Below, in pieces: positions 4,348 through 38,618 of a DNA stretch of 38,696 nt (positions are counted from its first letter, which is position 1; each line of letters starts with the position of its first letter). The position numbers and the translations under genes are program-made. The notes under the pieces were generated by a model that did no database searches, was not told the DNA's origin, and saw only the letters and a program-made list of their open reading frames with translations. Origin of the DNA: Gammaproteobacteria bacterium. Its GTDB lineage: Bacteria; Pseudomonadota; Gammaproteobacteria; DSM-19610. Where the stretch lies: the NCBI GenBank assembly GCA_030621785.1, contig JAUXGZ010000012.1:1-38696 (forward strand), read 5' to 3'.

Positions 4348-4349
4348 TT

Positions 4350-12189: not shown

Positions 12190-12220
12190 AAAGAGCCACC
12201 ATTGCGGTGGCTCTTTTTTT
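12190..12220 (+). terminator. Rho-independent terminator
   Basis: The stem AAGAGCCACC (12191-12200) and GGTGGCTCTT (12206-12215) encloses the 5-nt loop ATTGC and is followed by a continuous T run to 12220. It ends the HMA-like gene. The - strand copy also has a short T run, so it may serve the convergent sucrose synthase gene, whose stop codon begins immediately next to it. Confidence 0.92.
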
Positions 12221-14625: not shown

Positions 14626-14705
14626 GTTGGTTTCCAGTCTTGAAGGAACGGGGTGTAAAAATCATGATTGTCCGGCGTGTCACCAGCAAGGGAGCGCCGC
14701 CGCAG

Positions 14706-19927: not shown

Positions 19928-20755
19928 TCAGTGCAAAGAATCTATGAAGCCTCGTGCGTGCTCGCGGATGGCCTGCTCGAACTCGCGCTGCAGTGTCTTT
20001 AGTACATCGGGCCGGGGCTCGCCCGAGTTCTCGTCCATGAAGACCTTTTTTGCCTCGGTCGGTAATACCAGGGTGTTGTGGTAGTTCCCGCCAACGAAAG
20101 TTGCCTGGTAGCCTCTGCCGTAGAAGACCTCGTTGATTGCTGCCCGGACCTCGATCCCCGGTAGGCGGATGCGGCCCAGTTGCTCGACCCATTGGTCGAT
20201 TAGGGCTTGCCAGCGTTGTGTTTCCAGTTGCTCGGTGCCTATGTTGAAAAGTGGTACATCGCCCATTCCGGGACGCAGGTAGTTGTAGGAGTGGACGTCA
20301 TATACCAGCACCTGCGGGTGCAGTGATTCCAGTTTTTCATAGAGTGCGCCCAGTACGGTATAGAACGCGTTGTGTTTTGCCACGCTGGTTGCTTTCTCCG
20401 TATCACTCAGCGGCTCATTCCAGACTGTCTGCCCCCAGGCCTCCTTGTAGACGCAGGTCTCCGGCGAGCGGTTCAGGTCGTACTCGTAGCGGGAGTCGTT
20501 GGCGACCACCGTAATCGGCATATTCGCGGCAATGTCGGCGGTGTAGGGATCTTCCTCGTGCAGACGTTGCGATTCATCGAGCGCACAGTTCTCCTGCAGT
20601 GCGGGGCGCAGGCGATGGCCGTTGTGAATTGCCGTACAGACGAAATGTGTGTAGTCCTCGATCCTGACAAAGAATGCGCCGTCGCTGACGGAGGCATGAA
20701 ATGTCCTGCCTGCGTGTATCGCCGCTATGCAGTCATTAATATCCAGCTCTGTCAT
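19928..20755 (-). CDS. N-formylglutamate amidohydrolase family protein
   Basis: A 275-aa protein of the N-formylglutamate deformylase family, zinc-type amidases that release formate from N-formyl-L-glutamate in histidine breakdown; paralogues act on other N-acyl amino acids. Family landmarks are HNGHRL (His44, His47), DSRYEYDLNR (87-96) and YDVHSYN (152-158), which hold the metal and catalytic residues. The ATG overlaps the upstream transporter stop by one base (TAATG), which implies translational coupling. No hut genes accompany it, so the substrate is more likely whatever the coupled transporter brings in. Family confident, substrate not. Confidence 0.85.
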   Translation of the reverse strand: MTELDINDCIAAIHAGRTFHASVSDGAFFVRIEDYTHFVCTAIHNGHRLRPALQENCALDESQRLHEEDPYTADIAANMPITVVANDSRYEYDLNRSPETCVYKEAWGQTVWNEPLSDTEKATSVAKHNAFYTVLGALYEKLESLHPQVLVYDVHSYNYLRPGMGDVPLFNIGTEQLETQRWQALIDQWVEQLGRIRLPGIEVRAAINEVFYGRGYQATFVGGNYHNTLVLPTEAKKVFMDENSGEPRPDVLKTLQREFEQAIREHARGFIDSLH

Positions 20756-22943: not shown

Positions 22944-24134
22944 TTACGCGAAGACCGCCTGCGGCGTGTTGTTGAAATCCTTTGCGAGGGTGCCGATGGT
23001 GATGCGCATGACTTCACGGAACACCTTGTCCCGGTCGAAATTGACGACGATCGGAATATTTGCCCGGTCGGCTTCGGAGAGGAGGTAGGACTGTAATCGC
23101 CAGATTTCATCAAAATGTTTCAGATAGCGCTCGGCACGACGCTGTGGCACATCGGCCCCACGGCCACTTATTCTTCGCTGCAGTTGCTTGTGTTTCAGCA
23201 CGCCCAGCATGACGGGAATGATGACGGCGTCATCTTCCTGTGCCAGTTTTCCCACGAATGCCGGGTGGATGTGTACGCCTTCCATGATCAGTGATGTCCG
23301 CTCATGCCGGGCACGCTGGATAAAGGCTTCCATTGCGACAGAGAGCAGATCTGCCTGGCTTCGGTAGCCGTTCACCAGCAATGTTTCCGGCACCTCTCCA
23401 ATAGCCTCCGGCTGGCCGGGCAAGGCGGTCCATGCAGTAAATGAGGATGTGTGAAGTACCGGAATAAGCTGTTCGGGCATCATGATACGCATGACCTCGC
23501 GCAGCATGTCCGTCGACTGGGTACGGACGATATCCAGACGGCTTGCCAGCATGGAGGCGACGGTGCTTTTTCCGCAGCCGGCTGTGCCGCCTATAAGAAG
23601 AATCAACGGTCGGCCACTGTTGATGAAATCGTGCCAGACCAGCCAGCGGTGGGCGACTGCCGGTCCCAGCTCACTGGATTGTCGCAGGAACCTGTAAGTC
23701 AGTTTGCCCAGGCGCTTCGAGGTGATCATCTCCATGTGCCGGTCAAGCAGATGTTTGTGAACGGCGGCCATGGCCCCGACGGCTTCTTCACCAGTGAGGC
23801 CGATGGTTTCAAGGCATCGCTGGTATTCGTGCCTGGAAAACGGGGTTACCTGTCCGTCCCGCTGCTCCACATGAATGGCAAAGGTTTTTTTCTGCGCCTC
23901 GTAGCGTGTGATTATATCCGGATCCGCACGTGCCTTGAGCAGCTCGAGAACCTTTTGACGCAGTTCCTGAATAGTGATTACCGGCGTATCACCCAGAGCA
24001 TTGCGGATTTTCGTTGCCATCTCATAGGCGGAATCAAACGATAGCCCCGAGTCTTGCAGGGAGCGAACCAGGATACCGCGCAGGAAGGGAATACTGGTAT
24101 TTTCCTGCTTGTCTTCGACTAGAATTTTTGCCAT
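22944..24134 (-). CDS. 2-phosphoglycerate kinase-like protein (ATP-cone + P-loop kinase)
   Basis: A 396-aa protein. The N-terminal ~95 residues resemble an ATP-cone (PFLRGILVRSLQDSGLS, then helices), as in archaeal 2-phosphoglycerate kinases. The kinase domain carries the Walker A LIGGTAGCGKST (about 180-191), an STDMLREVMR segment, and a later EGVHIHP. In methanogens 2PGK phosphorylates 2-phosphoglycerate to 2,3-bisphosphoglycerate on the way to cyclic 2,3-DPG; bacterial homologues are little studied. I start it at the ATG at 24134, four nt after the ParA-like stop. The open frame extends further upstream, but that part overlaps parA and has no family resemblance. It is the last gene of the CHAD-ParA-2PGK operon. 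Confidence 0.85.
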   Translation of the reverse strand: MAKILVEDKQENTSIPFLRGILVRSLQDSGLSFDSAYEMATKIRNALGDTPVITIQELRQKVLELLKARADPDIITRYEAQKKTFAIHVEQRDGQVTPFSRHEYQRCLETIGLTGEEAVGAMAAVHKHLLDRHMEMITSKRLGKLTYRFLRQSSELGPAVAHRWLVWHDFINSGRPLILLIGGTAGCGKSTVASMLASRLDIVRTQSTDMLREVMRIMMPEQLIPVLHTSSFTAWTALPGQPEAIGEVPETLLVNGYRSQADLLSVAMEAFIQRARHERTSLIMEGVHIHPAFVGKLAQEDDAVIIPVMLGVLKHKQLQRRISGRGADVPQRRAERYLKHFDEIWRLQSYLLSEADRANIPIVVNFDRDKVFREVMRITIGTLAKDFNNTPQAVFA

Positions 24135-24138
24135 ATGC

Positions 24139-24891
24139 TCATTCCCAGTGAGACAGGTGCTGTTTGACTTCCTCCCACAGAGCCTCGTAGCAGCGGGCAG
24201 AGCGGCTGTTGGGGGCAAATTCTCCCAGGGGGGCGCGATGGCTTCCCATGCGTTCCACGTTGCTGTCGTAGGGAATGCTTGTCTCCAGGAGATTTTGCAT
24301 GTCGGTGGGAGAGTCATCCACGATAGAGCAATGCAGTTGCTTGCGGCGGTCGACCATGGAGAAGAACGGCAGGAGCTTGCTCGGGTCCAGCCGGTTTTGC
24401 CGGAAAAACTTCCTGATCTGTTTATAGGTGCGCAGTGACAAGGTGGTCGGTATGGTCGGAACCAGCACCGAGCTGGCCGCGTCGAAGATGTTTTCCGAGA
24501 CCAGGGAAATGCTCGGTGGGCAGTCAAGAAAAACATAATAATATTCGTGTTTGAAGGGCTTGAGCAGTTTGTGAAGCTGGCGTACCGGTTTTTTCGCCTG
24601 CTCCAGGTAAAGATCCATGTTCCGGTAGGAAAAATCTGCGGGTAGAAGATCGAGCCACTCAAAATCGGTACCGCGGATAAAATCGTCCAGATCACGCTTG
24701 CCCTCTATCAATCGCTTGCCACCTCCCTTGATCCTGGGCTTGACCCGGAAGTAATAGCTTGCGGCGCCCTGGGGGTCGAGGTCCCAGATGAGTGTCGGTG
24801 CACCTTCGCGGGCCGCGAGCCAGGCAAGATTGACCGCGGTGGCGGTTTTACCGACACCCCCCTTGATATTGTATGTAGCGATTACTTTCAA
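24139..24891 (-). CDS. ParA/MinD-family ATPase
   Basis: A 250-aa P-loop ATPase. It has the deviant Walker A KGGVGKT (10-16), the Walker A' DLDPQG (37-42) and LDCPPS near residue 118, all typical of ParA/Soj. The start is TTG at 24891, overlapping the preceding CHAD gene's stop as TTGA, with GGAGA just upstream. There is no ParB, centromere-like repeat or replication gene nearby, and the chromosomal par locus normally lies elsewhere, so it is an orphan. Between a CHAD protein and a 2-phosphoglycerate kinase it may position a cellular body, for example a polyphosphate granule; that is inference from context only. Confidence 0.9.
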   Translation of the reverse strand: MKVIATYNIKGGVGKTATAVNLAWLAAREGAPTLIWDLDPQGAASYYFRVKPRIKGGGKRLIEGKRDLDDFIRGTDFEWLDLLPADFSYRNMDLYLEQAKKPVRQLHKLLKPFKHEYYYVFLDCPPSISLVSENIFDAASSVLVPTIPTTLSLRTYKQIRKFFRQNRLDPSKLLPFFSMVDRRKQLHCSIVDDSPTDMQNLLETSIPYDSNVERMGSHRAPLGEFAPNSRSARCYEALWEEVKQHLSHWE

Positions 24892-26453
24892 ACTTGCGGT
24901 TCTCCGCTGGATGCGAACAGTTTCCGGAAATGTCCCTGGTTTTTCGACAGGGAGAAATCCGCGAACCGGCCGGTAAACGTTTTCCGGGCCTGATGCTGGC
25001 GTCTTTCCAGTCCGTCGATGAGCATGCCCATAGCCAGTAGTGTGTCAGGCGAAACTTCGCCTTCCGCCACCATCTGGTGACTAAAGGTTTTCAGGGTCGT
25101 TACCTGTACCTCGTAATCCTGAAAATCACCCAGGTTCTCCTGTAATGTCTTGAGCTTCCGGATCAGTTCCCTGATCCTGGTTGCAGGGTACAGGCTCTGG
25201 AAAAACTCCATCAGGTAGCGCAGTTTTTTGCAGGTTTTGCGCAGTTCGTGCAGGTCATCCGCGGGTGACTCTGCATTGATCGCATTACCCTCCCGGATAA
25301 CGCGCCGGTAGATCCGCCAGATTCGTTCACAGGCGACCTCAGTGACTGGCCGCCAGGAATTTTTCAATGTCGACCGTTCGTTGACCGGTTGCTCGAGAAA
25401 ATCGCGCCAGTTTTTTATCAGCCGGCGATAGCGGGCTGAATTCAGCGCCTTGACCAGAGCCCTGAGTTCGATCTTTTGATGTCTGATGAGGAATTCGCGC
25501 AGCGGTTCGATATCGGCCTGCACGGCGGCCGGCAGGCTGTCACGGTACTTGTCGAAGTTCAGTAGATAGACATCCAGGTCGCGGCTGGGACTGGTTATTG
25601 TTCCCATCCAGGCAAATTCGGTTTTGTAACGCTCGGTGGTCTGTTTCGGGAATACCTCTTTTATCTGGGTAAGCGCTGAACGGGTACGGCGGATTGCGAC
25701 CCGGAAATCGTGCAGGAATTCCGAGTCTGTGCCGGTGCGCGTGCCATCTTCGTTTTGCAGCATAACCTCGAGGAGCCGGTGTAGTATGACCTTGGTGGCC
25801 CGGTCTGCACGCATGGCCGGGTCCAGCTTCAGATTCAGTTTGGACGAGTAGCTGCCGGGTATTTCGCCGATGGTGGCCAGTGCTGCCAGCATTAGATCGT
25901 GCTGCGCCGGGGTCAGCCCCGATGCCTGCAGGAACTTTACCAGTTCATTGCAGGGTTTCGGGTAACCCTTTACCGGGATGATAATGGCCCGGTCGTCAAG
26001 TTTACCCGGGCGTTTCCCTTGCTGTCGTGGCAGGGTGTTTTCCTCGACGACCAGATAGGCCACGGTTTTTTCGTCCCGGTTCAGAACACGCAGGGTATGG
26101 GTCCTGGATCGAATCCGGACTCTGGAAGCCAGCTCGCGCATTTCCAGTACCGGCTCCAGCAAATCGCGAAATTGCCCTGCTGGCAGGTCCCGGGCAAAGC
26201 GGGGCATTCTCCCCGTCCTTAGTCGGAGATCACGGCCTTTACCTTTCAGGGGGCGCCATACCAGCAGGTTTTCGCTGCCATCACGGGTGCCTTCAAGCAG
26301 TGAATTGTTCAGATACAGACGCCAGTCAAAACTGTCGTAATACGTTCGGTCGGCCATCCGTGACGGTTCGGTGAGTATGCGGTTGTTCTTCTGAATCGTT
26401 GACTGCAAATCTTCGAAACGAACGCCTTCGGGGATAATGAATTCAATGCGCAT
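24888..26453 (-). CDS. CHAD domain protein with divergent CYTH-like N-terminus
   Basis: A 521-aa protein. The C-terminal half (about 215-510) is a CHAD domain, a histidine-rich helical fold that binds polyphosphate; its marks are HDFRVAIRRTRSAL (248-261) and, later, DDLHELRKTCKKLRYLMEF. The N-terminal ~190 residues contain YYDSFDWRLY (38-47) and alternating charged strands such as LLVWRPLKGK and RIRSRTHTL, which look like a divergent CYTH (triphosphate tunnel) domain, a usual partner of CHAD. The canonical CYTH ExExK signature is not seen near the start, so catalysis may be lost. It heads a tightly overlapping operon with the ParA-like and 2PGK genes. Confidence 0.88.
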   Translation of the reverse strand: MRIEFIIPEGVRFEDLQSTIQKNNRILTEPSRMADRTYYDSFDWRLYLNNSLLEGTRDGSENLLVWRPLKGKGRDLRLRTGRMPRFARDLPAGQFRDLLEPVLEMRELASRVRIRSRTHTLRVLNRDEKTVAYLVVEENTLPRQQGKRPGKLDDRAIIIPVKGYPKPCNELVKFLQASGLTPAQHDLMLAALATIGEIPGSYSSKLNLKLDPAMRADRATKVILHRLLEVMLQNEDGTRTGTDSEFLHDFRVAIRRTRSALTQIKEVFPKQTTERYKTEFAWMGTITSPSRDLDVYLLNFDKYRDSLPAAVQADIEPLREFLIRHQKIELRALVKALNSARYRRLIKNWRDFLEQPVNERSTLKNSWRPVTEVACERIWRIYRRVIREGNAINAESPADDLHELRKTCKKLRYLMEFFQSLYPATRIRELIRKLKTLQENLGDFQDYEVQVTTLKTFSHQMVAEGEVSPDTLLAMGMLIDGLERRQHQARKTFTGRFADFSLSKNQGHFRKLFASSGEPQV

Positions 26454-26582: not shown

Positions 26583-27785
26583 CTAGGTCAGGGAGAGCAG
26601 GGCCGAAACCAGTAGTTCAGCATCATAATACGGCGCGCTTTTCCTGCTGATCAGACGGGTATCAATGACCTGGATATCCGGTTCCTGCAGGATCCGGGTT
26701 GATATCGATGACGGGTATTTGCCTTGTTTGCGGTCAACCAGAACAAAATTGAGCAGTTTCCTGTTGCTGCACCGGTCCGTGTTGTCAGCACGCAGATAAT
26801 CAAGCAGGGTCTGTACTGAACTGTCCAGGCTCATGCCGATCTGTTCCGGGTCTCGCCCGAGGTTGGGAATATAGACTTTCGGACAATCGGTGCCGGCGAT
26901 AGCTGAACCGACTCCTGTGGGCAGCAGGTTGGCTATCAGGCTTGAATAGAAACTGCCGGGGGGGTAGCAGATGAGTTCTGCCCGCTGGATCAATCGCCGG
27001 TTTTTTTTGCGTATTGCCGATTGGGCAGGTACGGGTGTGTCGGGAGAGCTGGACAGGAATAGCCGACTGACAGGCGACTTCAACGGTGTCACTTCCTTGC
27101 CGGTCAGCCGCTGCTGGCCAATTACGCAACTGCCGTCTTCAAGGTCCGCTGCGAGGTGCCGGTCATCATTGACCACGGCGCGTACGGTACCCAGTACGTT
27201 GACCAGTTTCGAGAACAGGAAAATGATCGGGTCCAGGTGCTTGTGGTTATTCAGGTAGCCTCCGGCAAGAATCAGGTTGCCGATGCTGGCGCCACGCAGG
27301 TCAAAATGGTCCGGCATGGCCTCACGGAAGTAACCCAGCTGGTTGCGGATCAGGCGGCGCATGGGATTGGAGATGGCGGCTACCAGTGGTTCCTTGCCGC
27401 GGATCATCAGATCGAGTCTGGCCAATAGCTGGCTGGCCGGTTGGCGGTGAGGAAGGCGATAGGTAACTAGCTGATAAACATCGGGATGCCCGGTAATGTT
27501 CTCATCTGCAAGGGCTACCAGCCGGCTGCGGAGATCGCCGATCGATGGCATACGAAAAGCCTGCCTCAGCGCTGCCGAGCTGCCACCGGAATCGAAGGGA
27601 GTTACCAGGTGGATAGAGTTGTGCGTGTATCGCTTTAATGCCCGGCTGGTAGCAGTGAGGGCCGAGCCACCGCTGAAAAACACCACACATGGTCCCAGTT
27701 CGGGTGCCTTCTGGTAGCGGCTGAGTCGCGCCTGGTCGGGTATTTGTGCGCGGCGGGTAATTCTGATCGAGGTATGTGCGGGCAC
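26583..27785 (-). CDS. CofD-like (YvcK/CofD superfamily) protein, GAK-system type
   Basis: A 400-aa Rossmann-fold protein of the CofD/YvcK superfamily. The opening CVVFFSGGSALTATSRAL is the nucleotide-binding loop, followed by HLVTPFDSGGSS and MPSIGDLRSRL, which correspond to the conserved CofD/YvcK core; GNLILAGGYL near residue 170 is the typical 'GN-L' motif. CofD transfers a phospho-C3 acid in F420 synthesis, whereas YvcK proteins bind UDP-GlcNAc; this variant differs from both and matches the remembered 'GAK system CofD-like' family. The start is GTG at 27785, divergent from the NUDIX gene across 117 nt. The association with an ATP-grasp enzyme and HprK-like kinase downstream on the other strand supports the assignment. 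Confidence 0.85.
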   Translation of the reverse strand: MPAHTSIRITRRAQIPDQARLSRYQKAPELGPCVVFFSGGSALTATSRALKRYTHNSIHLVTPFDSGGSSAALRQAFRMPSIGDLRSRLVALADENITGHPDVYQLVTYRLPHRQPASQLLARLDLMIRGKEPLVAAISNPMRRLIRNQLGYFREAMPDHFDLRGASIGNLILAGGYLNNHKHLDPIIFLFSKLVNVLGTVRAVVNDDRHLAADLEDGSCVIGQQRLTGKEVTPLKSPVSRLFLSSSPDTPVPAQSAIRKKNRRLIQRAELICYPPGSFYSSLIANLLPTGVGSAIAGTDCPKVYIPNLGRDPEQIGMSLDSSVQTLLDYLRADNTDRCSNRKLLNFVLVDRKQGKYPSSISTRILQEPDIQVIDTRLISRKSAPYYDAELLVSALLSLT

Positions 27786-27902
27786 AATGTCAGGTCCGGT
27801 ACTGGTTTCCGGGTTAACCCGCTATGCAGGTTAGTAGTTAGATCCCCGGCGTTTGGCTGCTATGATTGGGCCGTACAATACAACAATCGATACGGCAAGC
27901 CT

Positions 27903-28376
27903 ATGGAAACGATTACTCCTCCGATACGCAATGCGGTCCGTGCACTGATCCGGCGGGGGAATAACATTCTGCTGCTGCGCAAGGACGGCTATGAGCAGGG
28001 TGAGCGGTTTGCCCTGCCGGGAGGTGGCCAGGATCTCGGTGAGACACTGGAGCAGGCACTGCAGCGTGAATGCCTGGAAGAAATCGGCACCCGGGTAGAA
28101 ATTCGTGCTCTTGTCCACGTGGCAGACTGCTTCAAGCCGCGGGATACGTCTCCCGGGAGCAGACGACACCTGGTTGAATTCCTGTTCACCTGTACGGTTC
28201 CCGATGCGTATGTTCCGATAAATGGTCACCACCCGGACAAGCACCAGGTAGAGGTGGTCTGGGTCAGGCTGGACCAGCTCGCCGACATGCCGCTCTATCC
28301 CCGCTCGCTGGCTTCATGCCTGGCGGATTCCGGGAAGAGCACAGGTACTGTCTACCTGGGCTCCATCGACTGGTGA
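27903..28376 (+). CDS. NUDIX hydrolase
   Basis: A 157-aa single-domain NUDIX hydrolase, cleaving a nucleoside diphosphate linked to another moiety. The Nudix box runs from Gly41 to Gly62 (GGQDLGETLEQALQRECLEEIG), matching G-x5-E-x7-RE-x-x-EE-x-G with Glu47, Arg55, Glu56, Glu59 and Glu60 all present. I start it at the ATG at 27903, because the open frame upstream reads into the divergent promoter region and has no similarity. Its stop overlaps the next start as TGATG, so translation is coupled with the PhoU/phosphotransferase gene. The substrate cannot be told from sequence. Confidence 0.88.
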   Translation: METITPPIRNAVRALIRRGNNILLLRKDGYEQGERFALPGGGQDLGETLEQALQRECLEEIGTRVEIRALVHVADCFKPRDTSPGSRRHLVEFLFTCTVPDAYVPINGHHPDKHQVEVVWVRLDQLADMPLYPRSLASCLADSGKSTGTVYLGSIDW

Positions 28377-30016
28377 TGAAGGTTTCGAAAAACATTAGTA
28401 ACAATCTCCGTTTTCTGGTTGCCGAAGTCGCGTCCCAGGTATCCAGTCTGCAATCCTGTTTCGATGCCCCCTCGGCAAGCGTTGCCCGGCGCATCCTCGA
28501 CCGTAGCGGCTACGCCTGTAACCTTATGCTGCGGATACATGACGACTGTCATGCACTGATTATCAAGGCCGGCGATCCAGGTGTCGAGGTTGCCTCTCTG
28601 CGTGCCGTTGAAGCGGTTGCGACAGACCTGGAACGAATTGCCGGACTGTGCCGCGAAAGCATTTTGCAACTGGAACAGCTGAAAGGCAGGCACTGTCCCG
28701 GCGCCGGCACCTGTAAATCCATGCTGGGAAGGGTCATGGGCGGACTGGACCGGATTGAAGGTGCGATTCATCTGAACGATACCCGGCTGGCCCTCAAGAT
28801 TGGTCGGATAAAACCGCGCCTGGACAAGGATTGTCAGAAACTGGTGAAAAAATTTACCGCAGGACTAAAACGCAGGACGCGTACGGAAGACCTGGTGGCA
28901 GGGTTGTTCCTGGTCCATGGCATCGAGAAAATGGGGAGTGTAATGCTCGACGTCAGCGAGGCAATTATATCCGCAAACCTTGGACAGCCCATCAACATCG
29001 ATGGCTACCATTCCCTGCGCGCCTCTATGGACCAGCTGGACAAGGAAAATAACTATTCAGACCTGGTGGTTGAGCCAATTGCAGAAACGCGTTCGGGTAG
29101 CAGTATCTCCGGTATCAGTGCGACGGGGCAGGAAGATGCCGGTTATGTGGCTATCTACAAGGACGGTAAAAAGCGCAAGTTGCGCGAGGAACGCAGGGGT
29201 CTGACAAGCTGGCAGGAAATATTTCCGGGTCTGGCGCCGAAGATTCTTTCGTATCGCAAACGCGGACAGTCGGCCGCGTTGTTGATCGAGCACCTGGCTG
29301 GACTGACTTTTGAGCAGATATTGCTGCACGAGCCGCCTCGTCTGCTCAGGCAGACCCTGAAGCAGCTGAACCTCACTCTGGGAAAGATATGGAACGGGAC
29401 GCGCACCGACAAGACGGTTGCTGCCGGTTACATGCGGCAGCTCTCGAAGCGCCTGGAAGAGGTGTATGCCATCCATCCGGAATTTCGCCAGGATGGCTGC
29501 CGTATCTGCGGCAAACCGGTCCCTTCGTTTGGTGCGTTGCTGAAGCGGGCACACAGCCTCGAGGCTGGTATCAGGGCGCCATTTTCGGTCTATATTCACG
29601 GTGATTTCAATGTGGATAACATCATCTACGATCCGCTGGAGAAGAAAATCAACTTCATCGACCTGCACCGTTCGCGCTACATGGACTACGTGCAGGACGT
29701 ATCGGTTTTCATGGTGTCCAATTACCGTCTGCAGATTTTCGATGCTCCATTGCGCAGGCGTATCATGCTACTGACGCAGGATTTTTACCGCTTCGCAGCA
29801 GCCTACGCCAGGGACTCCGGGGACCGGACATTCGAGCACCGCCTGGCCCTTGGGCTGGCGCGTTCGTTTGCCACGTCCACACGCTTCATCCTTGACAAGT
29901 CACTGTCATGCGCCATGTTCCTGCGTGCCCGTTACCTGCTCGAGCAGGTGCTGGCCGCAGATATTGACGATCCGGCCTCGTTCCACGTTCCGGTCAGGGA
30001 GATTTTCATTGGCTGA
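28376..30016 (+). CDS. PhoU-like domain fused to aminoglycoside-phosphotransferase-like kinase
   Basis: A 546-aa fusion. Residues about 10-220 are helical and PhoU-like (VASLRAVEAVATDLERIAGLC, then a second three-helix unit with GIEKMGSVMLDVSEAI); PhoU domains sense or regulate phosphate traffic. Residues about 255-520 are an APH/choline-kinase-type fold: VYIHGDFNVDNIIYDP (406-421) is the Brenner catalytic loop with Asp411 and Asn416 in the expected places, and INFIDLHRS (425-433) supplies the metal-binding Asp. YVQDVSVFM follows as in the family. A CRIC motif (377-380) sits between. The ATG overlaps the NUDIX stop, and the next gene begins inside this one's end, so it is in the core of the operon. 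The phosphate acceptor is unknown. Confidence 0.85.
   Translation: MKVSKNISNNLRFLVAEVASQVSSLQSCFDAPSASVARRILDRSGYACNLMLRIHDDCHALIIKAGDPGVEVASLRAVEAVATDLERIAGLCRESILQLEQLKGRHCPGAGTCKSMLGRVMGGLDRIEGAIHLNDTRLALKIGRIKPRLDKDCQKLVKKFTAGLKRRTRTEDLVAGLFLVHGIEKMGSVMLDVSEAIISANLGQPINIDGYHSLRASMDQLDKENNYSDLVVEPIAETRSGSSISGISATGQEDAGYVAIYKDGKKRKLREERRGLTSWQEIFPGLAPKILSYRKRGQSAALLIEHLAGLTFEQILLHEPPRLLRQTLKQLNLTLGKIWNGTRTDKTVAAGYMRQLSKRLEEVYAIHPEFRQDGCRICGKPVPSFGALLKRAHSLEAGIRAPFSVYIHGDFNVDNIIYDPLEKKINFIDLHRSRYMDYVQDVSVFMVSNYRLQIFDAPLRRRIMLLTQDFYRFAAAYARDSGDRTFEHRLALGLARSFATSTRFILDKSLSCAMFLRARYLLEQVLAADIDDPASFHVPVREIFIG
29996..30001 (+). promoter_or_regulatory. Ribosome binding site AGGGAG selecting the TTG start of the ATP-grasp gene
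   Basis: AGGGAG lies 7 nt before the TTG at 30009 and inside the end of the preceding coding sequence. It supports this TTG over the upstream in-frame starts, which lie deep within the kinase gene. Confidence 0.55.
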
Positions 30017-30896
30017 ATACAGAGTTGGTGTGGTTGGCATTGCGGGGAAGTGGTCCACGGAAGCCCTGGCCGATGCCGTTGAGGAAAGAACCGGTTACCG
30101 ACTGGTGATTGATATGGGTGAAGTCAGTCTCGATCTGGATCGGCAGCGCCTGATATTCCGGGACCAGGATCTATGCCAGCTGGATGCGCTGATTATCAAG
30201 AAGATCAGTGCCAGCTACAGTCCTGCAACGCTGGATCGCCTGGAACTGCTGCGTGTCGCCGAACAGGCCGGCGTCCGGGTGTTCAGTCGGGCGGTGAATA
30301 TCCTGCGTTTGATCGATCGCCTGAGTTGCACGATCACCCTGCGCAACGCCGGCATTCCAATGCCGGCAACCCGGGTTACCGGGAATCCGGAGGCCGCGTT
30401 AACTGCCGTGCAGGATTTTGGTAGTGCTGTTTTCAAGCCGCTGTATTCCACCAAGGCCCGTGGTATGTGTATTATCGACGCCGACCAGGATCAAACCGGG
30501 ATCGAACGTGAAATTTTCGCTTTTCAGGCAGAAAATCCCATGATGTATATCCAGCAGAAGGTAGCGTTACCGGGGCGGGACCTGGGAATGGTGTTTCTGG
30601 GTGGTGAGTACCTTGGTTCCTATGCCAGGGTGTCGGGGGGGGATGCCTGGAATACGACCATACACAGCGGGGGACGGTATGCTGAACATACGCCACCGGA
30701 TACGGTGATTGAGCTTGCACAACGTGCCCAGGCGTTGTTCGATATGGACTTCACCACGGTCGATGTAGCCGAAACGAACTTCGGCCCGATTGTCTTCGAG
30801 GTATCTGCCTTTGGCGGATTCCGCGGAGCTCTGGAAGGTATCGGCATCGATGCCGCCGCTTTGTATGCAGACCATGTGCTGCGTCAATTAGCGTAA
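30009..30896 (+). CDS. ATP-grasp enzyme (RimK/GshB-like), GAK-system type
   Basis: A 295-aa predicted ligase. The N-terminal ~100 residues are a pre-ATP-grasp Rossmann-like unit (VGVVGIAGKWS). Then DRLSCTITLRNAGIPMPAT (103-121) matches the RimK-type 'N/D-K/R-L-x-T...GIP.P.T' lid, VFKPLYSTKARGM (142-153) the ATP-binding strand, and VDVAETNFGP with VFEVSAFGGFRG (251-273) the metal-binding end, where the usual EVN appears as EVS. Such enzymes join a carboxylate to an amine or thiol through an acyl-phosphate. The start is a TTG overlapping the preceding stop. It belongs to the remembered 'GAK system ATP-grasp' family together with the kinase directly downstream. Substrates unknown. Confidence 0.88.
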   Translation: MAEYRVGVVGIAGKWSTEALADAVEERTGYRLVIDMGEVSLDLDRQRLIFRDQDLCQLDALIIKKISASYSPATLDRLELLRVAEQAGVRVFSRAVNILRLIDRLSCTITLRNAGIPMPATRVTGNPEAALTAVQDFGSAVFKPLYSTKARGMCIIDADQDQTGIEREIFAFQAENPMMYIQQKVALPGRDLGMVFLGGEYLGSYARVSGGDAWNTTIHSGGRYAEHTPPDTVIELAQRAQALFDMDFTTVDVAETNFGPIVFEVSAFGGFRGALEGIGIDAAALYADHVLRQLA

Positions 30897-30915
30897 GGAA
30901 GAAAAGGAAACAACG

Positions 30916-32004
30916 ATGGCCTACACGGTAGAGTCCGATGCGCATGCACTACTGAACGATACGCAGTTATGTGCTGATGAACTGCATCTTGCAGTCGGTG
31001 GATGCATGCTGAGGGTGCGTTCCGGTTCGGCTGAACTTCTGGCGGAGCTTGGCGATTATTTTTCGCATGTTATCGGTGAAAAAGTGACACCCGACATCGA
31101 CATCCTTGCCATCGAACGCGATGCGCCGGAGCTGGGGATGGATTTCATCGACTGGCAACGCGAACCGGGCAAGACCGGGCGCAAGGATTCCTATGTGGAC
31201 CTGCCGGGCGGGCGTCTTGTTCGCAAGGTGCGCACCGGCATGGTTTTCCTGCAGAGTGAGCGCTACCGGATCGCCGCCGGACCGTGCAGGAAGTACATTA
31301 ATCAGGTGGTCAACTTTATCAATTCCCAGTATATGAACTGGCTACAAAACCGGGGCTGGTTGATTTGCCATGCTGCGGGGCTCGTCTACCGGGGCAAAGG
31401 GCTCGGGATCGCCGGATTTTCCGGCGGTGGCAAGTCCACCCTGATGCTGCATTTGCTGGGCAACGACGAAGTGTCTTACCAGAGTAACGATCGTTTATTC
31501 ATCCGCAAGGAGTCTGACCGGACTCTGACACGCGGAATACCGAAGTTACCGCGCATCAATCCGGGTACCATCGTCCATAATCGGAAATTGCACAGGCTCA
31601 TTCCCGAACAGCAGCGCGAAGCCTTGCTACAGTTGCCAGGCGCGGAGCTTTGGGAGCTCGAGGAAAAATATGATGTTCATATCGACCAGGTGTATGGTCC
31701 CGGGCGGATCGTGCCGGAGGCCAGGCTGGCAGCTTTCCTGATACTCGACTGGCGGCGGGACGCCGGACTGGAGCTGCAAGTCGAGCGGGTGGACCTGGTT
31801 GCACAGCGCACCCTGTTGAGTGCACTGATGAAATCTTCGGGTCCGTTCTACCAGTACCCGGATGGCACGTTCCAGGAGGATACGGCAGGCTTCGATGAAT
31901 CTGCCTATCTGGACGCACTTGAAAACACCCCTGTCTATGTCGCCAGGGGACGGGTTGATTTTTCCGCCATGTCAGACCGTTGCCTGCTGGAGTTGCTGGC
32001 CTGA
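30916..32004 (+). CDS. HprK-related kinase (GAK-system type)
   Basis: A 362-aa protein. HAAGLVYRGKGLGIAGFSGG with GKSTLML (about 152-178; Walker A GFSGGGKST at 167-175) and SNDRLFI (about 191-197) match the C-terminal catalytic domain of HPr kinase/phosphorylase, with the P-loop and the following acidic residue. The N-terminal ~145 residues are unlike the HprK N-domain. HprK modifies a serine of HPr; no HPr or PTS gene is in the window, so the target is probably different. It starts with ATG at 30916 after AAGGAAGAAAAGGAAA, 19 nt past the ATP-grasp stop. This is likely the family named HprK-related kinase B in protein-family collections. Confidence 0.87.
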   Translation: MAYTVESDAHALLNDTQLCADELHLAVGGCMLRVRSGSAELLAELGDYFSHVIGEKVTPDIDILAIERDAPELGMDFIDWQREPGKTGRKDSYVDLPGGRLVRKVRTGMVFLQSERYRIAAGPCRKYINQVVNFINSQYMNWLQNRGWLICHAAGLVYRGKGLGIAGFSGGGKSTLMLHLLGNDEVSYQSNDRLFIRKESDRTLTRGIPKLPRINPGTIVHNRKLHRLIPEQQREALLQLPGAELWELEEKYDVHIDQVYGPGRIVPEARLAAFLILDWRRDAGLELQVERVDLVAQRTLLSALMKSSGPFYQYPDGTFQEDTAGFDESAYLDALENTPVYVARGRVDFSAMSDRCLLELLA

Positions 32005-32021
32005 CCATTACGCGAGGTAAC

Positions 32022-32987
32022 ATGACCATGACACGTGAACTCCTGCTTCTTCGGCACGGCAAGTCCGACTGGAGTACCGGTGTTGATGATTACATTCGCC
32101 CGCTGAAGGATCGCGGCAAGCGCGATGCCCAGCGTATCGGAACATGGCTCGCGCAGCAGCGAATAAAGCCCGGACTCGTCGTTACATCACCGGCGGAGCG
32201 CGCCCTGGTCACGGCCCAGAAAATATGCAAGGCCATGGGGGACGGGGACCAGGGTATCCGCGAGGACAGGCGTGTCTACGCGGCAGGACTCAACGAGTTG
32301 CTCAAGGTGCTCGGTGATTGTTCGCAGGATGCAGACCGGGTCATGCTGACAGGCCACAACCCGGGGCTGGAGGAACTGCTGGTCTGGCTGGCGAGAGATG
32401 CCGTTCCGGTGCCGGACGATGGCAAACTGCTGCCGACAGCGACGCTGGCGAGGTTACAGATGCCGACTGACTGGCGAGCGCTGACAGCCGGATGCGCCCG
32501 CCTGGAATCCATTACACGTCCTGGAACGCTGCCGAGAAAATTTCCCTATCCTGCACCGGATGGCGAGGAACGGCGCGATCGGCCCGCGTACTACTATACC
32601 CAGTCGTCCGTGATCCCGTATCGTGTGCGTAACGGTAAACCGGAGGTGCTGGTCATATCGTCCAGCAAAAAACACCACCTGGTGGTCCCGAAAGGCATTA
32701 AGGAGCCGGGGCTTTCCGCCCGGGAATCCGCTGCGAAAGAGGCACTGGAGGAGGCGGGCATCGAAGGCGATGTGGCGGAAACCGCAGTCGGTAATTATAC
32801 CTATAGCAAATGGGGTGCGACCTGTACGGTGACGGTGTATCCCATGAAAGTAACCCGTCTCATACCGGAAGAGGAGTGGCAGGAACGTCACCGGGGACGT
32901 CAGTGGCTGAGCCTGAAAAGAGCTGCACGGCAACTGAAACAGAAGGAGTTGAAGCCGCTGGTGAAAAGACTGGGAGCCGTGTTGTAG
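32022..32987 (+). CDS. SixA-type histidine phosphatase fused to a NUDIX domain
   Basis: A 321-aa two-domain protein. Residues 5-160 are a short-branch histidine phosphatase: LLLLRHGKSDW (His12), TSPAERALVTAQ and LTGHNPGLEEL (second catalytic His112), the SixA pattern known to dephosphorylate phosphohistidine. Residues about 190-321 are a NUDIX domain with VPKGIKEPGLSARESAAKEA then LEEAGIEG, a variant box in which the first Glu is Leu but REx2EEx is kept as KEALEEAG; similar domains act on diphosphoinositol or dinucleoside polyphosphates. The start at 32022 follows GAGG; the ATG at 32028 is an equal alternative. It follows the kinase by 17 nt, so this unit could remove what the kinase and ligase make. 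Confidence 0.87.
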   Translation: MTMTRELLLLRHGKSDWSTGVDDYIRPLKDRGKRDAQRIGTWLAQQRIKPGLVVTSPAERALVTAQKICKAMGDGDQGIREDRRVYAAGLNELLKVLGDCSQDADRVMLTGHNPGLEELLVWLARDAVPVPDDGKLLPTATLARLQMPTDWRALTAGCARLESITRPGTLPRKFPYPAPDGEERRDRPAYYYTQSSVIPYRVRNGKPEVLVISSSKKHHLVVPKGIKEPGLSARESAAKEALEEAGIEGDVAETAVGNYTYSKWGATCTVTVYPMKVTRLIPEEEWQERHRGRQWLSLKRAARQLKQKELKPLVKRLGAVL

Positions 32988-32993
32988 TCCGCA

Positions 32994-33695
32994 ATGGCCA
33001 GATTGATTGCAGCACTGATTCGACATGGCGACTATCGACAGTTGCCGGATACTCCCAGCGCACACCAGCCCTATCCACTCAGCAGCGAAGGTGAAAACCA
33101 GGCGCGGGCAGGTGCGCAGCTTCTGCATGACATGATGGTGAAGAATGGCTGGGTGCTGGAGCCCTGCATCGATTCATCGCGTATGTTGCGTGCCTGGCAG
33201 ACTGCGACGATATTTGCGGACCGGCTTGCGGGACTGGCTTCATCCACACCGGTTATAAAGAGCTATGACGAATTGGCTGAAAGAGGCGTCGGCTGCCTCG
33301 CCAACCTCACGCTTGCACAGATAGAGGTCATTCTGCGGCAGGATCCACGTTTCCCTGATCCACCTGCCGACTGGAAGGTGGATAGCTACTACTGCCTGCC
33401 ATTACAGGGCGCGGAATCTCTCATGCAGGCTGGTGAGCGGGTGGCTACACACCTGGTTCGATCCATGGCGGCATTGCCGCCGGACGAGCATGACAGGGTA
33501 AAGATCTTTACCGGGCACGGTGCAGCTTTTCGTCATGCAGCATGTCATCTTGGCGTGCTGGATTTCGGGCAGATCAGGCAACTGAGTATGTATCATTGTC
33601 AGCCCGTAATGATCGAGTATTTGTCCACAGGGCAATGGCGTCATGCAGCGGGAGAATGGAAAGTCCGCTCCGGGTATAGCCCGTTTACAGACTAG
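32994..33695 (+). CDS. Histidine phosphatase superfamily protein
   Basis: A 233-aa histidine phosphatase. ALIRHGDY (His11) is the catalytic loop, DSSRMLRAWQTA holds the substrate-binding Arg, YDELAERGVGCL supplies the acidic residue and FTGHGAAFRHA the second His. It lies 6 nt after the SixA-NUDIX gene, and the next gene begins within 10 nt of its stop. This is one of three histidine phosphatases here, and all three differ in sequence, so they are not recent duplicates. The substrate, protein phosphohistidine or a small phosphoester, cannot be told. Confidence 0.88.
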   Translation: MARLIAALIRHGDYRQLPDTPSAHQPYPLSSEGENQARAGAQLLHDMMVKNGWVLEPCIDSSRMLRAWQTATIFADRLAGLASSTPVIKSYDELAERGVGCLANLTLAQIEVILRQDPRFPDPPADWKVDSYYCLPLQGAESLMQAGERVATHLVRSMAALPPDEHDRVKIFTGHGAAFRHAACHLGVLDFGQIRQLSMYHCQPVMIEYLSTGQWRHAAGEWKVRSGYSPFTD

Positions 33696-33700
33696 GTGAG
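33693..33700 (+). promoter_or_regulatory. Ribosome binding site deciding the start at 33705
   Basis: The purine-rich stretch TAGGTGAG lies just before the ATG at 33705 and overlaps the GTG at 33696, so the ATG is the better start. Confidence 0.5.
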
Positions 33701-33704
33701 CGTC

Positions 33705-35063
33705 ATGCAATTGAAAAACTCCCACAAGTACCTTCCACGTTACAAGGGTGAATCATGGATTGAAGCCTGCCTTCCGAAGCAGGGGCAGGTCTGGATGCCG
33801 GGAAAACGACACGCCGTTAAAAAAGATAAATACCATAGTGCCGCCTACGCGCAGGAAATGAGCAAGGCTATCGGGCAGGACCCATGGAAATGGCCGAAGC
33901 GTAGCCTGTATTTCATTTCCGACATGCACGCTGATGCAGATGCCTTCATTGCCTCTCTGGTGGCCTCGGGTGGCGTGAAAAAAACCGGGCCGCGAGACCG
34001 GGATTTCAGGCTCACCAAAGCCGGGCGGAAGGCACGCTTTCTCATTGGTGGTGATTGTTTTGACAAGGGTCCGGATACGTTGCGCTTGCTGGATGTCATG
34101 CGCGTTCTGATTGACCGCGGCGGGGATGTGCAGTTACTGGCAGGTAATCATGATATCCGCATGCTGGTCGGAATAATGAAGGTCGGGATGAAACCAGACC
34201 CGAGAATTGATCATTTTTTCATTCGTATGGGACCCAAGATGGTTCCCTTTCTGAGCGAAATCCGTGACCGCTATCTGACGGGAAAACATGCATTGCGTGG
34301 TGTGCCCGATAGCCGCGAGTGTAGACGCTTGCTGTATCCCCCGAAAAGCTGGTTTCGGGAGTTCCCACAGCTGGCCGCATGGGCGATGCCGGATTCGACA
34401 ATCGAACGCGAAGTGGAGAGATTGCGCAGGAAGATGGGGCATTTTGAAGCGGATTGCGAGAAGGCAGGGCTTTCCCGGCGCATGGTGTACGCGGCGGCGA
34501 AGAAATGGCATGAGCTGTTTTTACGCCCGAAAGGTGAGTACGCGTGGTTTTATAAACGCATGCAGCTTGCATACCGTGAAGGTTCCTTTATTTTTGTGCA
34601 CGCCGGTATCGATGACAGAATGGCCCGACTGATCAGTGAAAAAGGCGTGAAGCGTATCAATCGAAAATTCCGCAAGCAGATGTACCGGGATCCATTCGAC
34701 TTTTACTATGGCCCCATGGCGAATATCATTCGTACCAAGTATCGTCCGGTGGACCGGCCCCTGACCCGGCACGGCGTCAGGCTGCTTAGAAAAAATAGTC
34801 ATATACACGCTATTGTTCATGGACATCGTAACCTGCTGCACGGGCAACGCGTCATGTTGAGGAAAGGCATCGTTAACTTTGAGTGTGATACCACGCTGGA
34901 TCGTAATTCAAGGAAAAAAGAGGGGCTTGAAGGACCGGGCGCGGCGGTTACCATCTTCAGGCCCGAAGGGCTGGTGATGGGAGTCAGTACTGACTATCCT
35001 TATATCAAGGTATTTGAACCGGCATCGATCAACCATCAGGCTGCCATTTCCGGACGTACATAA
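33705..35063 (+). CDS. Calcineurin-like metallophosphoesterase
   Basis: A 452-aa protein with the metallophosphoesterase motifs in order: ISDMHAD (D73, H75), GGDCFDKGP (115-123, equivalent to GDxxDRG), LAGNHDIR (145-152) and a late VHGHRN. These bind two metal ions and cleave phosphate esters or anhydrides. The Phe-Asp-Lys variant of the second motif resembles Ser/Thr-phosphatase-like and Ap4A-hydrolase-like branches. The ~60 residues before the first motif are basic and without similarity I recognise, and an insert (about 175-300) separates GNHD from the C-terminal His motifs. It is in the same run as the two histidine phosphatases. Confidence 0.87.
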   Translation: MQLKNSHKYLPRYKGESWIEACLPKQGQVWMPGKRHAVKKDKYHSAAYAQEMSKAIGQDPWKWPKRSLYFISDMHADADAFIASLVASGGVKKTGPRDRDFRLTKAGRKARFLIGGDCFDKGPDTLRLLDVMRVLIDRGGDVQLLAGNHDIRMLVGIMKVGMKPDPRIDHFFIRMGPKMVPFLSEIRDRYLTGKHALRGVPDSRECRRLLYPPKSWFREFPQLAAWAMPDSTIEREVERLRRKMGHFEADCEKAGLSRRMVYAAAKKWHELFLRPKGEYAWFYKRMQLAYREGSFIFVHAGIDDRMARLISEKGVKRINRKFRKQMYRDPFDFYYGPMANIIRTKYRPVDRPLTRHGVRLLRKNSHIHAIVHGHRNLLHGQRVMLRKGIVNFECDTTLDRNSRKKEGLEGPGAAVTIFRPEGLVMGVSTDYPYIKVFEPASINHQAAISGRT

Positions 35064-35102
35064 GGTGTCAAGCGGGAATGCCGGCAACGGATTTATAACA
35101 GC

Positions 35103-35372
35103 ATGAGAAGAGGAAAAAGAAGTTTCCGCCACCAGTCATTGCAGGATAAAAAATCCATCCGGGATATTCTGGAAGCGATCACCAGCGGTGTGGCCAAAGG
35201 CAAGATCAGCTTTAGTGATGAAGATGACAAAATTGTCATGCGACCGGAGGGGCTGCTGGATCTGAAAATAACCGCGACCCAGGAAGAGAATCGCAACCGG
35301 TTCAATATTCGCATAAGCTGGCAGGTAGAAGAGAAAACAGTGAACCGGAAGAAGCAACTGTCTGTGAAGTGA
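35103..35372 (+). CDS. Amphi-Trp domain protein
   Basis: An 89-aa protein. After a basic tail it shows FRHQSLQDKKSIRDILEAI, a helix, then GVAKGKISFSDEDDKIVM, LLDLKITATQEENRNRFNI and RISWQ (Trp73), the alternating pattern of the amphi-Trp domain: an N-terminal helix, then amphipathic strands and a terminal Trp. This small domain is a regular partner of the ATP-grasp and HprK-like kinase genes in the GAK set. Its role is unknown; possibilities are a modification target, carrier or adaptor. The start ATG lacks a good ribosome site and follows the phosphoesterase stop by 39 nt. Confidence 0.78.
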   Translation: MRRGKRSFRHQSLQDKKSIRDILEAITSGVAKGKISFSDEDDKIVMRPEGLLDLKITATQEENRNRFNIRISWQVEEKTVNRKKQLSVK

Positions 35373-36209: not shown

Positions 36210-38033
36210 CTATACGTCACTTTCGCCGGGTTCCTCGTTCCCGGCTACTTCTTTTTCCTCGGGTACGACGGCTTTCGCCATTCTCTTGGCGAAGTAGTAG
36301 ATCCGTTTCAGTTTTTCGATAATATCGATCTCCAGCGTGTAGGCCGCCAGCCGGTTTGGTTCTTCGGCAACCAGGCGCCGGGTTTCGTGCATGGCTGCGG
36401 ACTCCATCAGGCGACTGATATCAGATTTCATGGCAATGACTTCCTGGGCCGCTTTCTGATCATTTTCCATGACAGCATCAATGGCCAACTCAGTGGAAAT
36501 CGATACTACGTGATGCAGTTTGTACAGTACCTCGCGCGTTTCCTCGCTGATCGACACCTGTGTCGAGATTCTCTCATTGCCAAGATAGACCATGTCGGTT
36601 TCGATGATGTCGCCAATATTTTCCAGATCGTTGGAGGCGGCCATGAGGTTGACAAGTGCCCGGGTCTGCTGCTCCGTCAATTCATTCTGGCTGACCTGCC
36701 CCAGGTAGGTCACGATGTGGCCATGCAGGATATCGACGTCGTCATCGATCCGGGCAATATCTTTCAGCATCATCCGGTCACCGGTGGAGATGGCAGGCAT
36801 GATGTCCCGCAACATTTCCTTGACGAGCTTACCCATGTGGCCGATCTCGAGGCGAACCCGGTCAAGCGCCAGCGAGGGGGTATCGAGAAGTTCCTCATCG
36901 AGATATTTTGGCCCGGTGACTTTTGCTTCTTCGACCGGTTTATCCGGAACCAGTCTCTCCACCAGGCGGGCGAACTGGCCGGTAAAGCCGATAAACAGCA
37001 ATGTATTCGCAATATTGAAAATAGTATGGGCATTGGCGATCTGCCGCGGCGTTTCGGCAGCCAGCCTGCTGGTACCCGATAATTCCGCATGTGCCGGTGA
37101 CAACAGGGTGACGACTTCTGCGAGGTAGGGGATTAAGCCGATCCATACCAGCACACCGAACACGTTGAACAGCACATGCACAACGGCGGCTCGCACGGCC
37201 TCGCGGGGTTTTCCGATCGCGGCAAGCATGGCAGTAACGCAGGTGCCGATATTGGCTCCGAAGGCGAGTGCAATACCGGCTTGCAGGGTAATAAAACCCT
37301 GGGCGGCCATGACGATGACGATGCCCGTGGTGGCCGAGGACGACTGGATCAGAGCGGTAAAACCGGCTGCCACCAGGATCCCGATTAGCGGGTTGTCCAT
37401 ATGGGACATCAGGTCGAGAAAAGGCTGGTAGCTGCGCAGGGGACTCATGGCGTCACTCATAACGCTCATGCCGAAGAATATCAGTCCAAGTCCCATCAGC
37501 ATGTTGCCGTACTGCCTGATCTTTTCCTGTCTGGAGAAGAACAGCATGCCGAACCCGCCCGCGATCATCAGCAGGGCGAATTTTGTTACTTTGAAAGCGA
37601 CGATCTGGGCGGTAATCGTGGTGCCGATATTGGCCCCCATGATGACACCAACGGATTGGGCCAGTGACATCAGTCCGGCCGTAATGAAACCCACGACCAG
37701 TACCGTAGTGACTGACGAGGACTGGATGATGGCGGTCACGAAAGCCCCGGTTGCCGCTCCCATGATGCGGTTGCTTGTGAGTTTTGCCAGGATGGTCTTC
37801 ATGCGCTCGCCGGCGACAGCCTTGAGCGCCTCCGCCATCTGGTCCATGCCAAACAGAAACAGGGCCAGACCGCCGAGCAGCTTCATGCCCATGTCCCACC
37901 AGCTGATTCCGCTGTCTGCCCCGGATGCGGCGAACGCCGGACTTACCGAGAATACCGCCATGACGGCAAAGGTGGTCAACAGGTTACGGGACGACGAACA
38001 AGCTGGAGTTGTGAAACGGAAGCGGCTGAACAT
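36210..38033 (-). CDS. Na/Pi-cotransporter family protein with C-terminal PhoU domain
   Basis: A 607-aa membrane protein. Residues 18-36 form a hydrophobic segment ending SPAFA-A, which looks like a cleavable signal peptide. Two inverted repeats each carry the QSSS motif of the SLC34/NptA family (QSSSVTT at 104-110 and QSSSATT at 230-236), which coordinates sodium and phosphate. The C-terminal ~200 residues form a PhoU-like helical domain (NDLENIGDIIETD). Such bacterial proteins move phosphate or regulate it. Start ATG at 38033 has GGGGTAA upstream. It is transcribed toward the third histidine phosphatase and follows the universal stress gene in the same direction by about 100 nt. Confidence 0.93.
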   Translation of the reverse strand: MFSRFRFTTPACSSSRNLLTTFAVMAVFSVSPAFAASGADSGISWWDMGMKLLGGLALFLFGMDQMAEALKAVAGERMKTILAKLTSNRIMGAATGAFVTAIIQSSSVTTVLVVGFITAGLMSLAQSVGVIMGANIGTTITAQIVAFKVTKFALLMIAGGFGMLFFSRQEKIRQYGNMLMGLGLIFFGMSVMSDAMSPLRSYQPFLDLMSHMDNPLIGILVAAGFTALIQSSSATTGIVIVMAAQGFITLQAGIALAFGANIGTCVTAMLAAIGKPREAVRAAVVHVLFNVFGVLVWIGLIPYLAEVVTLLSPAHAELSGTSRLAAETPRQIANAHTIFNIANTLLFIGFTGQFARLVERLVPDKPVEEAKVTGPKYLDEELLDTPSLALDRVRLEIGHMGKLVKEMLRDIMPAISTGDRMMLKDIARIDDDVDILHGHIVTYLGQVSQNELTEQQTRALVNLMAASNDLENIGDIIETDMVYLGNERISTQVSISEETREVLYKLHHVVSISTELAIDAVMENDQKAAQEVIAMKSDISRLMESAAMHETRRLVAEEPNRLAAYTLEIDIIEKLKRIYYFAKRMAKAVVPEEKEVAGNEEPGESDV

Positions 38034-38135: not shown

Positions 38136-38618
38136 TCAGGACTGATGTTTTTCGCCATTCTTGACGATCATGACCGGCACCGGCGCCAGGCGTACGATCT
38201 GTTCTGCCTTGGAGCCCAGCATGGCGCGAGCGAGTCCGGTCCGACCCTGGCTACCCATAATGATCATGCGCGCGTGGATTTTTTTCGCCGCCTCCAGAAT
38301 CCGGTTGACCGGTAGCCCGACAACCAGCATGGTCGCCGCGTGTTCCAGGGCCGGCAATCCGGAATGTTGTCTCTGCATCCGGTGAACAAATTCATCCAGC
38401 ATCTCGGCAGCAACGTCCTCCATGCGTCGCAGCTGTTTGTTTCTTCCCTTGACTGAATAATAGCCGGGTGCTTCCCCTGGATCATGGACAACATGCAGTA
38501 TAACGAGCTTGTTGCCCAGTGTTTTTGCCAGTTCGGCCGCGCACAGCAGCGCCGACTCGGAATGAGATGAAAAATCAACGGGGACCAGGATTGGTTGGTT
38601 TTTTTCTGCGGTGGCCAA
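38136..38618 (-). CDS. Universal stress protein (UspA family)
   Basis: A 160-aa USP-fold protein, starting ILVPVDFSSHSESAL near residue 10. The ATP-binding signature G-x2-G-x9-G-[ST] is present as GSQGRTGLARAMLGS (about 122-136), followed by KAEQIVRLAPVPVMIVK, so it is probably an ATP-binding member. The only plausible start is TTG at 38618; the frame upstream is closed by TGA at 38628-38630 and the next Met lies far inside the domain. No clear ribosome site precedes it. Loose linkage to the Na/Pi transporter suggests a stress or energy link, not more. Confidence 0.9.
   Translation of the reverse strand: MATAEKNQPILVPVDFSSHSESALLCAAELAKTLGNKLVILHVVHDPGEAPGYYSVKGRNKQLRRMEDVAAEMLDEFVHRMQRQHSGLPALEHAATMLVVGLPVNRILEAAKKIHARMIIMGSQGRTGLARAMLGSKAEQIVRLAPVPVMIVKNGEKHQS

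Follow-up and report, generated by a model that had tools for sequence, protein, structure and literature searches.

A GAK locus from a gammaproteobacterium carries a conserved and laterally transferred core of kinases and phosphatases with a possible link to phosphate

We analyzed a stretch of DNA of 38,696 nucleotides (hereafter the window; contig JAUXGZ010000012.1 of assembly GCA_030621785.1) from a gammaproteobacterium of the GTDB lineage DSM-19610, with a focus on the GAK locus that it carries at positions 26583–35372. The host genome, of which this contig is one, amounts to 2.15 Mb and is 75% complete. GAK is a named but unexplained entry of the protein-family databases, and we found no paper describing GAK, amphi-Trp or the HprK-related kinase among the open-access papers searched. 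All ten proteins were taken from the window and scanned against NCBIfam and Pfam. Four of them had been assigned to the GAK system in an initial annotation of this DNA, and each scores above the cut-off of its NCBIfam model, with both coordinates and families confirmed: the ATP-grasp enzyme (450.6 bits against TIGR04356, grasp_GAK; cut-off 300), the HprK-related kinase B, hereafter HprK-B (348.2 bits against TIGR04355, HprK_rel_B; cut-off 200), the amphi-Trp protein (64.4 bits against TIGR04354; cut-off 31) and the CofD-like protein (541.9 bits against TIGR04357, CofD_rel_GAK; cut-off 340). RefSeq uses the same names for these four proteins on Rhodobacterales plasmids. The GAK system is complete in the window locus, whose gene set goes beyond the four database models. 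The XXXCH protein (TIGR04358), which we take to be a further GAK-associated model, had no match in the 75% complete host genome, and no control genome matched it either. A match to HprK_rel_A in the host genome turned out to come from a different contig (G000:C63) and to be a regular HPr kinase (Hpr_kinase_C, 196.7 bits).

The genes between 27903 and 35372 form a co-directional block on the forward strand, in which the overlaps between adjacent genes are 1 or 8 bp and the gaps 0–39 bp; the overlapping or nearly abutting starts noted initially are thus borne out, with gene starts adjusted by eye to the conserved start of the alignments. In the window, the block opens with a NUDIX hydrolase with an intact NUDIX box (27903–28376; Pfam NUDIX, 65.5 bits), which overlaps by 1 bp a gene coding for a fusion of a PhoU-like N-terminal domain with an APH-type kinase (28376–30016; Pfam APH, 32.3 bits). 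The latter protein, hereafter PhoU-APH, retains the HGDFNxxN motif and is matched by the NCBIfam PhoU model PRK11115 across residues 38–235 (E 7.7e-6). After an 8-bp overlap come the ATP-grasp gene (30009–30896), HprK-B (30916–32004) and a SixA-type histidine phosphatase fused to a NUDIX domain resembling those of Ap4A hydrolases and DIPP (32022–32987). These are followed by a branch-1 histidine phosphatase with the motif RHGxYxQ (32994–33695; Pfam His_Phos_1, 55.6 bits), a calcineurin-like metallophosphatase with the ApaH/PPP-like motifs GDxxDxG and GNHDxR (33696–35063; Pfam Metallophos, 27.6 bits), which starts at the first base past the end of the preceding gene, and finally amphi-Trp (35103–35372). 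The CofD-like gene lies on the opposite strand (26583–27785), divergent from the block, with an intergenic control region (27786–27902) between them. The Pfam and NCBIfam matches therefore agree with the earlier claim that NUDIX, histidine phosphatase, PhoU/APH and metallophosphatase genes accompany the four named proteins.

We then examined 89 related loci from Gamma-, Alpha- and Zetaproteobacteria and Planctomycetota. Profiles derived from the loci were run on all open frames, and the fractions given here, which count only loci reaching far enough, are descriptive, since the profiles come from the same loci. One order recurs, often with short overlaps—PhoU-APH, ATP-grasp, HprK-B, histidine phosphatase, metallophosphatase and amphi-Trp—and each component is present in 94–99% of the loci. 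Thus, the ATP-grasp gene is accompanied by PhoU-APH in 82/85 loci, HprK-B in 69/70, the histidine phosphatase in 61/65, the metallophosphatase in 56/59 and amphi-Trp in 58/59. The SixA-NUDIX fusion (48/65) and the first NUDIX protein (47/78) are frequent and less constant, and the CofD-like gene is found in 32/68 loci. The contrast with 20 control regions of 20 kb around non-GAK RimK-like genes is clear: these contained no partner, the sole match being a weak one to SixA-NUDIX (34 bits). The additional kinase and phosphatase genes are not hitch-hikers; they belong to the locus, and the block is kept across the 89 loci rather than its members being scattered. PhoU-APH, the histidine phosphatase and the metallophosphatase recur with roughly the constancy of the named GAK proteins, so there is good ground for a module that combines enzymes adding phosphate with enzymes removing it, and to this extent the writer–eraser circuit proposed in the initial annotation stands. 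None of the core genes was found fused to another.

The CofD-like protein passes its GAK model, and its standing as a component must nonetheless be qualified, for it is encoded on the opposite strand and is often absent elsewhere. It was not found in nine of the 14 GAK genomes tested, and in two GAK genomes it lies far from the operon. Conversely, one genome that has no GAK ATP-grasp above the cut-off carries a GAK CofD-like gene adjoining a Na/phosphate symporter (locus L137; G006:C1). Together with the lower locus fraction, these observations define a core of six genes, from PhoU-APH to amphi-Trp, with CofD as an accessory. The conserved unit is thereby larger than the NCBIfam GAK system in one direction and looser in the other. 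Other genes were also seen in or near GAK operons. Genes with motifs resembling the endonuclease/exonuclease/phosphatase family lie on the opposite strand inside rearranged GAK operons (L064:4671–5798, L067:12946–14088 and L068:13231–14388), each adjoining a third NUDIX gene, and CNNM/CorC-type genes recur near the operon in gammaproteobacterial loci (L049, L050, L052, L055–L059, L067, L068 and L071).

The catalytic motifs of the encoded enzymes are largely retained. In counts that include a few duplicated loci, 89/91 proteins have an intact APH motif (HGDFNxxN), 77/77 metallophosphatases an intact GDxxDxG and 73/81 histidine phosphatases an intact RHGxYxQ. The box of the first NUDIX protein is intact in 41/55 cases; in the second NUDIX domain, that of the SixA fusion, EAxEEAG is retained, whereas the first glutamate of the classic box is not.

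The GAK ATP-grasp of the window is 56–67% identical to those of 12 other genomes. Its nearest PDB entries are RimK and LysX (E 1e-18), and it shares the fold family and the overall sequence of the RimK/LysX/MptN ligases. However, it falls below the cut-off of the RimK family TIGR00768 (94.3 against 143.4 bits), and throughout the GAK sequences SGG and EVS stand where the RimK/LysX structures show RGG and EVN, while a near-invariant loop, KPLxSTKARGM, is retained. Given these changes, glutamate ligation cannot be assumed for the GAK enzyme. The same observations bear on a cofactor or modified-metabolite pathway, in which the kinases and phosphatases would catalyze successive steps and the ATP-grasp and CofD-like enzymes would act in coupling, by analogy with the assembly of F420 and tetrahydromethanopterin (CofD, CofF, MptN). 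The constant gene order fits such a pathway, as do the scores of the ATP-grasp with MptN (135 bits) and of the CofD-like protein with the CofD Pfam model (124.6 bits). Yet, most GAK genomes checked lack CofD, the residues typical of RimK and MptN are those that are altered, and several phosphatases and NUDIX hydrolases exceed the usual needs of a pathway; on balance, we consider this explanation possible but rather unlikely.

For HprK-B, the Pfam search yielded no family at E ≤ 0.001, and profile–profile comparison gave weak support for both phosphoenolpyruvate carboxykinase (PEPCK; 86.6%) and HPr kinase (82.5%). Its AlphaFold model has a predicted local distance difference test (pLDDT) of 95. 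Against the ATP-dependent PEPCK of Thermus, it aligns over residues 1–358 (Z 17.1; 296 residues; root-mean-square deviation 4.3), sharing in this prediction both the two-domain outline and the P-loop half. HPr kinase/phosphorylase, in contrast, matches only the P-loop kinase core, within residues 145–358 (Z 14.1; 134 residues; root-mean-square deviation 2.4). The P-loop (S167–S172) and H150 are invariant (numbering of the aligned segment 30922–31995), and in the profile alignment the histidine of PEPCK lies opposite one that precedes the P-loop lysine of HprK-B by about 21 residues. HprK-B differs from PEPCK in being only ~13% identical to it and in lacking a conserved lysine pair: the KK of the EMKK motif is invariant in seven PEPCKs, whereas Lys-Lys is not conserved at the facing positions of HprK-B in a profile alignment that is uncertain at this level of identity. 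As the likeness to PEPCK extends over the whole length and that to HPr kinase covers the P-loop half, the substrate of HprK-B leans toward a small molecule. We infer from the model that it is a compact kinase of the PEPCK superfamily and fold, probably acting on a small anion, which shifts the kind of substrate to be sought.

This bears directly on the amphi-Trp protein, which the initial annotation had offered as a possible carrier or target. At ~89 residues it is of the size of HPr; its predicted model (pLDDT 86) comprises one helix (residues 16–32) followed by four strands, and F8, S12, G33 and P48 are invariant, with H10 almost so. One could therefore envisage protein tagging, with amphi-Trp as a small carrier protein that HprK-B phosphorylates and to which the ATP-grasp ligates a group. 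The presence of amphi-Trp in nearly all loci, its size and its near-invariant FxHxS motif are in keeping with this, conservation being the one positive sign of a possible phospho-carrier role. However, Foldseek comparison of the model with solved structures returned none at E ≤ 0.001, and a second structural comparison gave a best match of Z 2.4; we accordingly do not favor amphi-Trp as an HPr analogue, although these comparisons leave room for one. Further, the conserved serine lies just before the helix and may be a structural cap, and the N-terminal half of HprK-B is PEPCK-like, with HPr kinase matching the other half alone. Hence, the carrier or target role for amphi-Trp did not gain support, and protein tagging as a whole appears unlikely.

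The combination of an ATP-grasp enzyme, a histidine phosphatase and a DIPP/Ap4A-like NUDIX domain recalls a further system, the eukaryotic inositol-pyrophosphate circuit (PMC11323792, PMC11836120). On its model, PPIP5K (ATP-grasp and histidine phosphatase) and DIPP-type NUDIX enzymes would have counterparts in a bacterial messenger circuit for phosphate homeostasis, and the same folds and a phosphate context are found around GAK. However, the ATP-grasp matches RimK/LysX in the PDB and not inositol kinases, and inositol-3-phosphate synthase (PF07994), which concerns de novo synthesis, was found in 0/35 genomes, 15 of them GAK carriers. With no match to this synthase, we dropped inositol pyrophosphates as the leading idea and regard such a circuit as very improbable; what the two systems have in common is the phosphate-tied logic of an ATP-grasp kinase, a histidine phosphatase and a NUDIX eraser.

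The phosphate context itself, which the initial annotation had not raised, emerged from the upstream regions and the neighborhoods of the operons. The strict Pho-box-like pattern TGTMAY-N5-TGTMAY, picked after an earlier consensus scan over the same regions, occurs upstream of the operon in 8/79 loci against 0.03 expected under a first-order Markov model; its density there is 54 times that in the remaining locus sequence. With a weight matrix from nine E. coli-like Pho boxes, written from general knowledge, eight of the 79 GAK operons have an upstream site above the 1% threshold and 22 one above the 5% threshold, compared to eight and 31, respectively, of 338 other genes of the same loci. PPK1, a polyphosphate kinase, is encoded within 11 kb of the operon in five loci (L049, L050, L052, L068 and L119), and PstS near it in six. 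In the window, the CofD-like gene is neighbored by a gene for a CHAD-domain protein (24888–26453, reverse strand; Pfam CHAD, 208 bits), a member of a polyphosphate-binding domain family (PMC6537752), with a 4-bp overlap to a ParA-like ATPase (24139–24891, reverse strand; Pfam AAA_31, 109.8 bits); this pair recurs in relatives, in 7/48 loci with full flanks. On the other side lie a further histidine phosphatase, shared with the closest relatives L049–L053 (35493–36203, forward strand; Pfam His_Phos_1, 103.4 bits), a Na/phosphate cotransporter with a PhoU domain (36210–38033, reverse strand; Pfam Na_Pi_cotrans, 220.6 bits; 5/48 loci) and a universal stress protein (38136–38618, reverse strand). 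In L050 and L052, PPK1 comes after this last gene, which is the point where the contig of the window ends. A comparable association is known from Streptomyces, where ppk, pptA (CHAD) and a NUDIX gene form a single Pho-controlled operon, and NUDIX and histidine phosphatase genes are common downstream of ppk (PMC8003754). The two share the company of NUDIX, CHAD and polyphosphate kinase together with phosphate control; they differ in that the account of the Streptomyces operon (PMC8003754) mentions neither an ATP-grasp nor HprK-B, PhoU-APH or amphi-Trp, and in that PPK1 and CHAD are merely occasional neighbors of GAK.

Beside the ParA and CHAD genes, an ATP-cone and P-loop protein is encoded at 22944–24131 on the reverse strand, which we took for a relative of 2-phosphoglycerate kinase. 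Suggestive as a neighbor, it was rejected as a part of the system, for it recurs in 0/48 loci; weak matches to its profile that overlap ParA in L049, L050 and L052 were taken as out-of-frame artefacts, the profile having come from one over-long frame.

The occurrence of the system is patchy, with an above-cut-off GAK ATP-grasp in 13/398 genomes of a phylum sample and the GAK CofD in 2/17 genomes of the genus of the window, its own included. A scan of named genomes gave 80 loci. By impression, many of these are from genera that are marine or halophilic, or from genomes of sediment bacteria or invertebrate symbionts, as judged by name. In the ATP-grasp tree, Planctomycetota fall inside a mostly alphaproteobacterial clade (100/96), and Stappiaceae group with the gammaproteobacterial Marinobacterium (100/97). 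Further, the operon is plasmid-borne in Tritonibacter, Pseudooceanicola and Qingshengfaniella. These placements and the plasmid location support lateral transfer, with six to nine genes for phosphate-adding and phosphate-removing enzymes moving between marine bacteria as one tight block.

Taken together, we tentatively favor, at somewhat less than even confidence, a laterally transferred circuit linked to phosphate or polyphosphate that phosphorylates and dephosphorylates small metabolites. In such a circuit, the kinases PhoU-APH and PEPCK-fold HprK-B, along with the ATP-grasp as ligase or kinase, would build at least one phosphorylated small metabolite, with CofD assisting the synthesis in certain lineages. 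Degradation of the metabolite or metabolites would fall to the histidine phosphatase and the metallophosphatase, joined by the NUDIX enzymes in loci that have them, and the PhoU domain and amphi-Trp might act as regulatory or binding parts. Control of the operon by PhoB would be expected in some lineages, which would make the module responsive to the supply of phosphate. Several points weigh against this proposal. No Pho-box-like site precedes the operon of the window (best weight-matrix score 2.5), and a strong one is missing from most of the 79 loci. The control genes have sites too, eight of 338 passing the 1% threshold, although three of these eight do so because the intergenic stretch is one that they have in common with a GAK operon. 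Most loci have no phosphate-related neighbors, and the PPK1 cases cannot be counted as five separate events, because L049, L050 and L052 are close kin. Moreover, ordinary biosynthetic pathways also alternate kinases and phosphatases. A bolder version, in which a laterally transferred circuit of marine bacteria makes and erases a novel phosphorylated messenger, or a carrier of phosphate, in step with phosphate and polyphosphate status, as a counterpart of PPIP5K/DIPP in logic and not in chemistry, strikes us as doubtful. Redefined by a six-gene core of kinases and phosphatases with an optional CofD, and tied to Pho-box-like promoters and polyphosphate-related neighbors, GAK turns from an open annotation into a set of specific, testable questions. 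Should the metabolite prove to be new, it would add to the phosphate-response chemistry of marine bacteria.

The remainder of the window holds further genes. A DUF6603 protein (9–1061, forward strand) precedes two very long open frames of 1092 and 1618 aa (1069–9206, forward strand), the former with no Pfam match. Upstream of the GAK region, a sucrose synthase gene lies beside one for a sucrose-phosphate synthase/phosphatase-like protein (12220–16907, reverse strand). Closer to the locus, a gene at 20755–22884 on the reverse strand codes for a fusion of a dicarboxylate symporter with an extracellular solute-binding domain (SDF and SBP_bac_3), and is adjoined by an N-formylglutamate amidohydrolase-like gene.

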